From assembly GCA_016927325.1 (NCBI GenBank), contig JAFGMY010000031.1, forward strand, positions 1 through 38,653: a DNA stretch of 38,653 nt. Direction: 5' to 3'. The translations under genes and the position numbers were made by a program. The DNA comes from Actinomycetota bacterium (GTDB lineage: Bacteria; Actinomycetota; Geothermincolia; Fen-727; Anoxymicrobiaceae). Below, one piece after another: positions 3,596-11,079 of this stretch. Every line of letters begins with the position of its first letter. Position 1 is the stretch's first letter. The notes under the pieces are model-generated. The model made no database searches. It saw only the letters and a list, made by a program, of their open reading frames with translations, and was not told the origin of the DNA.

Positions 3596-4732
3596 ATGGA
3601 TGATATTCCGGTTTGTGAAAGATGCGGTGTTCCGCAGTTTGTGGGAAATGAACTGAGTTGGAGCAATAACGGCGTTATTCTTCTCGGGGGATCACCCGTG
3701 AACAGGTGGGTCTTCTATGAGTCCGACAACATAGACGCGCTTTTCTGTGGTCTCGAACGGCTGATTGGTGTGCCCCTGAACGACATAATAGTCGAAAGCA
3801 GAAGGCGGGAGACAAGGAAGTACCTGGAAAGGGTATATCCTTCAGAGATCAGGGATGTATTGAAGCAGGAGCAGTTTTCCGGTACCAGGGGAGAAGCGGG
3901 AAAGCATGAAGAGCTGAAAGCAATCTTTGAAATGGCGAAATCCATTACCACCAGTGTTCACAATGTGGCTAGAATTTATGGGTATGGAGACCTTGGGCTG
4001 GGTGATTCATGGGAGCGTGGAGACGCGTACCCATGGCGCGAGACCCGGGTGAAAAAGCCTTACTCTTTGCCTATGAATATGGCTGAATCCCTGGGATCGT
4101 GCGAAGCCTTTGAGGGAGTCGATTTAAGGGTAGATTATAAGGAAATCGCACCTGAAACATTTATATTTACCAGTTCGGAAGGCGAACATCCCATTCATCT
4201 TCGTGGACGGCTGAAGCAGAACCTCTATCAGTTCAAGCCAGGTGAAATAACTTATGACTGCTGCAGGAGTTGCGGTGTTCCGGAGGATATAGCGCGCTGC
4301 GTGTGGAACCTTGAGGAAGGCACAATATTTGATCCCGTCATAGAAAGAAGAATGGCCGTATTCGGGCCGTATACGATTGAATCATTGTTAAAAGATCTTG
4401 AGTCGGAACTGGGGGACGCGGTACCCCGGTTGGTTATTGAAGCACAAAGAGAGCATGTAAGGGGAGCGTTGAGCGGTGAGAACTGGAGGCTGAAAGCTTC
4501 ACACTACAACAATATGATTGCTCTCCGCGGCCTGGGGAACCTCGTGGAATTCAACGTGGATGAGAATGCGCTTACGTTATTGATTCAAAATGCCTGTATG
4601 CACCTGCTGATGGTTGGAACGGTCAGGGCTCTGGTTGAGATGGGAATGGGTTGGGAAAACTCTGATTATGAATACTCGATGGAGGAGGATGGAGATCTCT
4701 TTGTGAGAATCAGTTGTCGGGAAAGGATATGA
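3596..4732 (+). CDS. Unrecognised CxxC protein family, paralogue 1 of 3
   Basis: 378 aa; CERCGVP near N-term and CCRSCGVP at about residue 222; strongly similar to the next two ORFs. Confidence 0.85.
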   Translation: MDDIPVCERCGVPQFVGNELSWSNNGVILLGGSPVNRWVFYESDNIDALFCGLERLIGVPLNDIIVESRRRETRKYLERVYPSEIRDVLKQEQFSGTRGEAGKHEELKAIFEMAKSITTSVHNVARIYGYGDLGLGDSWERGDAYPWRETRVKKPYSLPMNMAESLGSCEAFEGVDLRVDYKEIAPETFIFTSSEGEHPIHLRGRLKQNLYQFKPGEITYDCCRSCGVPEDIARCVWNLEEGTIFDPVIERRMAVFGPYTIESLLKDLESELGDAVPRLVIEAQREHVRGALSGENWRLKASHYNNMIALRGLGNLVEFNVDENALTLLIQNACMHLLMVGTVRALVEMGMGWENSDYEYSMEEDGDLFVRISCRERI

Positions 4733-10599: not shown

Positions 10600-11079
10600 T
10601 TACTCCTGTTCTTCTCTGTGGGTAACGTGCGGGTAGACTTCTATCTTATCCAAAGGTGTAATCGCACGTAGAAATACTCCTATGGACACACCCAGAAGGG
10701 AGGCGCTCAGGATGGCGAATGCTACTATTAAAGCGGTCCCACCGGGACCGATTATGGTTCCAATCATCGCAACCAGGAAAAGCAGGCTTGAGACGGCAAA
10801 TAACAGGGACGCGACCTTCAGCCTCCGGCTTCTCGGTATTTTCTTAATCGTGGTTGAAGGCGCGATATTCTCCGAGCACTTGACGCAAAGTGTTTCACCT
10901 TCAGGGGCTTTTTCCCCGCATATTTCACAGATTCCAAGTTTTTCAGGCGGGATATTTACTCCGTCACCCTTGGAATGTCTTTGTATGGACCCGCACTTGT
11001 CGCATATTGTCATGTAGTGAGCGATTGGATGCCCGCAAACCATGCAGTAATGGTCTTCAGGTACTTCCCGGTGTGCCAC
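10600..11079 (-). CDS. Zinc-ribbon membrane protein
   Basis: Four CxxC pairs (CMVCG, CDKCG, CEICG, CVKCS) then two TM helices. Confidence 0.75.
   Translation of the reverse strand: MAHREVPEDHYCMVCGHPIAHYMTICDKCGSIQRHSKGDGVNIPPEKLGICEICGEKAPEGETLCVKCSENIAPSTTIKKIPRSRRLKVASLLFAVSSLLFLVAMIGTIIGPGGTALIVAFAILSASLLGVSIGVFLRAITPLDKIEVYPHVTHREEQE

Follow-up and report, generated by a model that had tools for sequence, protein, structure and literature searches.

The window, that is, the whole stretch of 38,653 nucleotides analysed here, carries three adjacent, co-directional open reading frames for proteins of 376-384 amino acids, designated P1, P2 and P3 (Table 1). Each protein has exactly two CxxC motifs, with a spacing of about 216 residues, and the segments quoted in the preliminary description of this DNA were located in P1. 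The trio is preceded by genes for an ABC-2 permease, a DUF998 protein and a DUF308 protein, and is followed by genes for two small proteins without a Pfam match and then for a TMEM175-type protein; these neighbours on both sides give no hint at function. Farther along the window (10603-11079, minus strand) lies a gene for a small protein that has four CxxC-type motifs, matches a double zinc ribbon weakly, probably contains a membrane segment and is unrelated to the family described below.

Table 1. Features of the P1-P3 locus and of the P1 protein.
Feature	Position	Strand	Description	Basis
P1	3596..4732	+	378 aa, two-unit V4R-like protein (predicted)	ORF, AlphaFold model, family profile
P2	4886..6040	+	384 aa paralogue, Cx2C at 9 and 226	ORF; identity to P1 48%
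P3	6132..7262	+	376 aa paralogue, Cx2C at 7 and 224	ORF; identity to P1 51%
P1 unit 1 Cx2C knuckle	3614..3625	+	residues 7-10, CERC then GVP	sequence; conservation
P1 unit 1	3614..4228	+	residues about 7-211: knuckle, W22, then beta-beta-alpha-alpha-alpha-beta-beta-alpha-beta-beta	AlphaFold, family profile
P1 unit 1 extra loop			residues around 90-110, low-confidence in model	AlphaFold
P1 unit 2 Cx2C knuckle	4262..4273	+	residues 223-226, CRSC then GVP	sequence; conservation
P1 unit 2	4247..4729	+	residues 218-378, element order as unit 1	lone-half AlphaFold pLDDT 80; Foldseek

Each of these CxxC proteins had been proposed to be a tandem duplication in itself, and this holds over the full length of P1, P2 and P3, with alignments and profile-profile comparison in agreement. 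Local alignments of N-terminal with C-terminal halves, made within and between the three proteins, yielded scores of 58-90 against shuffle means of about 30 (standard deviation about 5), and in none of the nine comparisons did any of 500 shuffles reach the observed score. Profiles of the two halves matched at 99.8% (E 1.6e-27, 164 columns) when built from 24 paralogues and at 99.84% (E 2.3e-30, 160 columns) when built from 163 members, a match that covers nearly the entire half. The further pair of segments that had been suggested to correspond (KPYSLPMNMAESLG... and NACMHLLMVGT...) falls in the same register of this half-versus-half profile alignment. Positions conserved one-to-one between the N- and C-terminal units include C7/C223, C10/C226, P13/P229, W22/W237, G26/G242 and I28/I244, as well as R37/R252, G58/G273, G129/G312, G131/G314 and E170/E348.

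In a tree of 162 members, N-units are cleanly divided from C-units, with 0 of 324 in the wrong group, although the underlying alignment was seeded with both groups and this seeding favours their separation. The separation indicates that the internal duplication preceded the spread of the family. P1-P3 form one clade in the tree of family units (support 0.993), which, as judged from these sequences, is the product of local gene duplication. Thus, the earlier view that the locus holds six copies of one ancestral unit is upheld in the form of an old, family-wide internal duplication followed by local duplication of the gene. No genuine one-unit protein was found among the family matches examined; the apparent single-unit proteins were rejected because they are contig ends or frameshifted copies. 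Two frameshifted copies (L213:1864-2928 and L215:1016-2109, the former also without the unit 2 knuckle) suggest that some members are decaying, as expected of a birth-and-death gene family. In some members a long N-terminal extension was disregarded as the result of an over-extended open frame.

The family is large, and among the Actinomycetota searched it is restricted to a single class. The window's own genome, which is 82% complete, has at least 23 distinct family genes, which amounts to about 1% of the gene number expected for 2.5 Mb. In a close sample of 30 genomes of the same class, each has between 3 and 66 matches, often corresponding to twenty or more copies. In two wider samples, matches were present in 25 of 297 and 20 of 247 genomes (the window genome being included in each), all of them members of the class, and the other Actinomycetota in these samples had no family match. 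Outside Actinomycetota, the search comprised one pattern scan of an 84,980-species collection, which is an insensitive method, and no relative was found in plasmid and viral collections or contigs. Relatives were found in Candidatus Geothermincola primus, Ca. Solincola daggyaiensis, Ca. Solincola sediminis and further Actinomycetota genomes; the class is Geothermincolia. Beside a P1-type gene in one of the loci lies a very divergent member (L029:275-1408, plus strand; 15% identity to P1), which suggests that there are more subfamilies beyond those sampled. Searches of Pfam, NCBIfam, PHROGs, PADLOC and PDB sequences matched the family to nothing above cut-off, and the partially covered literature on tandem V4R proteins, V4R paralogues and Geothermincolia offered no description of it.

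An AlphaFold2 model of P1 built from 21 sequences has a pLDDT of 89 and a pTM of 0.87. A check, run in part, on whether the halves adopt two unrelated folds revealed instead that they share the order of their secondary-structure elements: following the knuckle, each half is predicted to run strand, strand, helix, helix, helix, strand, strand, helix, strand, strand, and the first half has additional helical segments and a loose loop. Foldseek searches with the whole P1 model matched H-NOX, PoxR, BcsD, Bet3-Trs33 and YslB, with the phenol sensor and V4R protein PoxR giving a TMt of 0.54 over 183 columns. The C-terminal half alone (pLDDT 80) had 22 PDB matches at E <= 1e-3, all of which are H-NOX, BcsD, YslB or TRAPP structures. 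TM-scores for this half were 0.57-0.59 with D. dadantii BcsD, 0.53-0.57 with YslB and 0.48-0.53 with Bet3-Trs33; H-NOX proteins gave the best E-values (1.3e-4), yet their TM-scores are below those of BcsD and YslB. A viral structure library yielded nothing at E <= 1e-3 with the model. Structures of H-NOX, the cellulose synthase D subunit, TRAPPC3 and V4R proteins have been compared before and found to have a common fold, dimer geometry and internal ligand cavities (PMC10933270). Both the P1 model and the lone C-terminal half display the V4R/TRAPP alpha-beta fold in AlphaFold and Foldseek analyses, and there is good support from these models for each unit of P1-P3 having the predicted fold of the V4R/TRAPP/H-NOX superfamily.

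The resemblance to V4R domains that had been noted from the sequence therefore stands at the level of the superfamily but not at that of the Pfam family. A profile of 22 V4R proteins, nearly all from Geothermincolia, matched the C-terminal half collinearly at 94.7% (E 6e-8, 120 columns) and the N-terminal half at 72%, compared with a maximum of 52% in 82 control comparisons with neighbouring gene families; this maximum came from an AbrB-type protein with CxxC motifs of its own, and the remaining values were at most 16%. In contrast, the Pfam V4R model (PF02830) had no match at E <= 1 in the 24 paralogues scanned. These findings characterize the family as a distant V4R relative rather than as a member of the Pfam family. 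PF02830 matches are entirely absent from the genome to which the window belongs, and 12 other class genomes of the sample have PF02830 proteins. At one locus of the same class, two genuine PF02830 genes (L104:946-1683 and L104:1687-2469) form an adjacent pair beside an AMP-ligase gene, with similar pairs in other genomes; such a two-gene V4R dimer would offer a natural comparison for the fused family.

Several features set the family apart from the known proteins with this fold. Compared with V4R proteins (PoxR, DmpR, MsvR and M. jannaschii MJ1460), it has two units per chain, a knuckle ahead of each unit, no effector domain and tens of copies per genome. The family has no counterpart of the Cys3-Glu metal site that is canonical for the second part of V4R domains; its only conserved cysteines are the four of the CxxC motifs. 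DmpR binds zinc through Cys151, Glu172, Cys177 and Cys185 (PMC7264223), and these second-half cysteines are not conserved in the family. TRAPP proteins (Bet3/TRAPPC3, Trs33 (PF04051) and Asgard TRAPPC3) have a similar fold and the expected dimer-like arrangement, but form homo- or heterodimers where the family has one chain. The glycine pair of Bet3 helix alpha5 is present as small-xxx-small motifs (G/A163-G167 and G341-G/A345; 86-99% per site), and that of helix alpha2 is absent. Thor-TRAPPC3 binds zinc with four cysteines near the sheet and a helix (PMC10933270), whereas each unit of the family offers two cysteines in an N-terminal knuckle. This knuckle is also extra relative to H-NOX proteins, the proximal haem histidine of which is absent; no His column exceeds about 50% in the family alignment.

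The complete set of four cysteines is present in 161 of 163 usable unique paralogues, the two exceptions being a C10G variant and a protein with an incomplete amino end, such that C7 and C10 each occur in 162 and C223 and C226 in all 163. No other column rises above about 50% Cys/His, the next best being about half His, which leaves no further soft ligand for a second site. Covariation was analysed by a mean-field method with 162 sequences, whose effective number of about 109 is small for 343 columns; the top pairs are plausible hairpin and helix-strand contacts. The pair 17-228, which joins both knuckle loops, is the second-strongest inter-half pair and ranks 4-6 of 57,001 across five settings. 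Among the top inter-half couplings, 13% have a symmetric mate in register, compared with 1-5% in 12 shifted registers. These couplings provide modest evidence for a pseudo-twofold interface at which the knuckles would lie close together. The pLDDT of the C-terminal knuckle drops from above 90 in the whole protein to 75-80 in the lone half, which also speaks for the two-unit reading.

The preliminary description further suggested that the two CxxC pairs of a chain could build one shared Cys4 metal site. Such a site is likely, with moderate support, given that the four cysteines are the sole near-invariant soft ligands, that the pairs are kept together and that covariation links the knuckles. 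An arrangement that we consider rather unlikely is that the Cys4 site is completed across the two chains of a dimer, or that the two halves carry separate sites, each with non-Cys ligands. Dimers are the rule among V4R and TRAPP proteins, the predictions made here are of single chains, and the conserved glutamates E170/E348 (about 90%) and E67 (86% of 163 members) are possible candidates for carboxylate ligands of such separate sites. However, both units are present in every intact member, and the coupling between halves is pseudo-twofold, though coupling is blind to the difference between intra- and inter-chain contacts.

The genomic setting of the family bears on whether its members act within protein complexes. 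Only 20% of members have a tight co-directional neighbour, compared with 50% of the non-member genes of these loci and 63% of genes in background regions, so that family genes are mostly outside operons; adjacent member pairs are co-directional in 25 of 25 cases. No recurrent partner gene was found beside members. P1-type arrays at seven loci (L031, L032, L035, L036, L064, L071 and L078) adjoin a gene for an EamA transporter, and those at six loci in other genomes adjoin genes for biotin carboxylase and a biotin-carrier protein. This acyl-CoA carboxylase pair was rejected as a functional partner because it reflects the shared synteny of one orthologous locus and is absent beside the window trio; the P1-type array of the window genome sits elsewhere, away from the EamA/carboxylase synteny. 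By TM-score, BcsD and Bet3-Trs33 rank among the nearest folds, which would suit an adaptor or scaffold without a small ligand, like TRAPP subunits or BcsD in protein complexes, but the paucity of tight operons and of any recurrent partner makes this role fairly improbable.

The identity of the metal is the subject of another alternative, in which the Cys4 site would be a rubredoxin-like Fe(Cys)4 centre and the protein an electron carrier or redox sensor for flavin or ferredoxin enzymes, with the V4R fold as a mere scaffold. CxxCG knuckles occur twice per chain in both rubredoxins and zinc ribbons, as in the family, although the family's knuckles are about 216 residues apart and in two domains. 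Among close neighbours of members, FAD-dependent oxidoreductases (7 of 126) and radical-SAM enzymes (6 of 126) exceed the background of at most 2 of 126 each, an excess that would suit iron but that is weak, stems in large part from orthologous loci counted several times and is not used as evidence here. Such Pfam matches as the knuckle has are weak and fall mostly on zinc fingers (best 2e-4, zf-Mss51), and so many redundant carriers, dozens in each genome, would be unexpected; we regard the Fe(Cys)4 reading as unlikely. Geothermincolia are thought to be anaerobic, which would be in keeping with CxxC pairs that serve as a thiol switch. Such a switch, in which oxidative disulfides would alter the pairing of units as proposed for MsvR, whose V4R cysteines are redox-active (PMC3729527), is nevertheless very unlikely, as the CxxCGxP context points to a metal knuckle and single losses among the four cysteines are exceedingly rare.

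Taken jointly, these findings make it fairly probable that P1-P3 are cytosolic two-unit V4R-like proteins that share a clamp metal site and bind hydrophobic ligands. The three proteins would belong to a class-wide cytosolic family with two H-NOX/V4R/TRAPP-superfamily units per chain. The dimers of V4R and TRAPP proteins have cavities that accommodate hydrophobic molecules (PMC10933270; PMC2253512), and fusion would turn this usual dimer into a single chain with a pseudo-twofold axis, a pairing of units that has good support. Each unit may contribute one CxxCGxP knuckle; the knuckles would meet and hold one structural metal ion, most likely as Zn(Cys)4, which would clamp the units together and replace the intra-unit zinc site of ordinary V4R and TRAPPC3 proteins. 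By analogy only with these relatives, which is the basis for both the hydrophobic ligand and the cellular role, the protein may bind and buffer, deliver or sense a small hydrophobic compound of acyl, isoprenoid or aromatic type, and the ligand would vary among the 20 or more paralogues. No attached DNA-binding, kinase or other output domain was found in the family proteins, and thus the protein should act in trans, through partners. A more tentative extension of the shared-clamp reading is that the twenty or more fused dimers per genome might constitute a class-specific ligand-handling system, in which an inter-unit Zn(Cys)4 clamp has replaced the ancestral V4R zinc site and the proteins have diversified as trans-acting sensors or carriers of lipophilic molecules.

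The V4R/TRAPP/H-NOX superfamily connects bacterial ligand sensing to eukaryotic vesicle tethering. In the archaeon Ignicoccus hospitalis, a complement of seven V4R proteins has been described as unusually large for an archaeal genome (PMC2253512). By comparison, single genomes of one bacterial class give as many as 66 matches to a fused-dimer form whose cysteines are arranged differently and which the family libraries consulted do not recognise. The family shows that a V4R/TRAPP-type dimer can be fused, and its paralogues are a natural panel for asking what the cavity binds. A predicted fold can now be assigned to about 1% of genes in this lineage, the biology of which is scarcely known.
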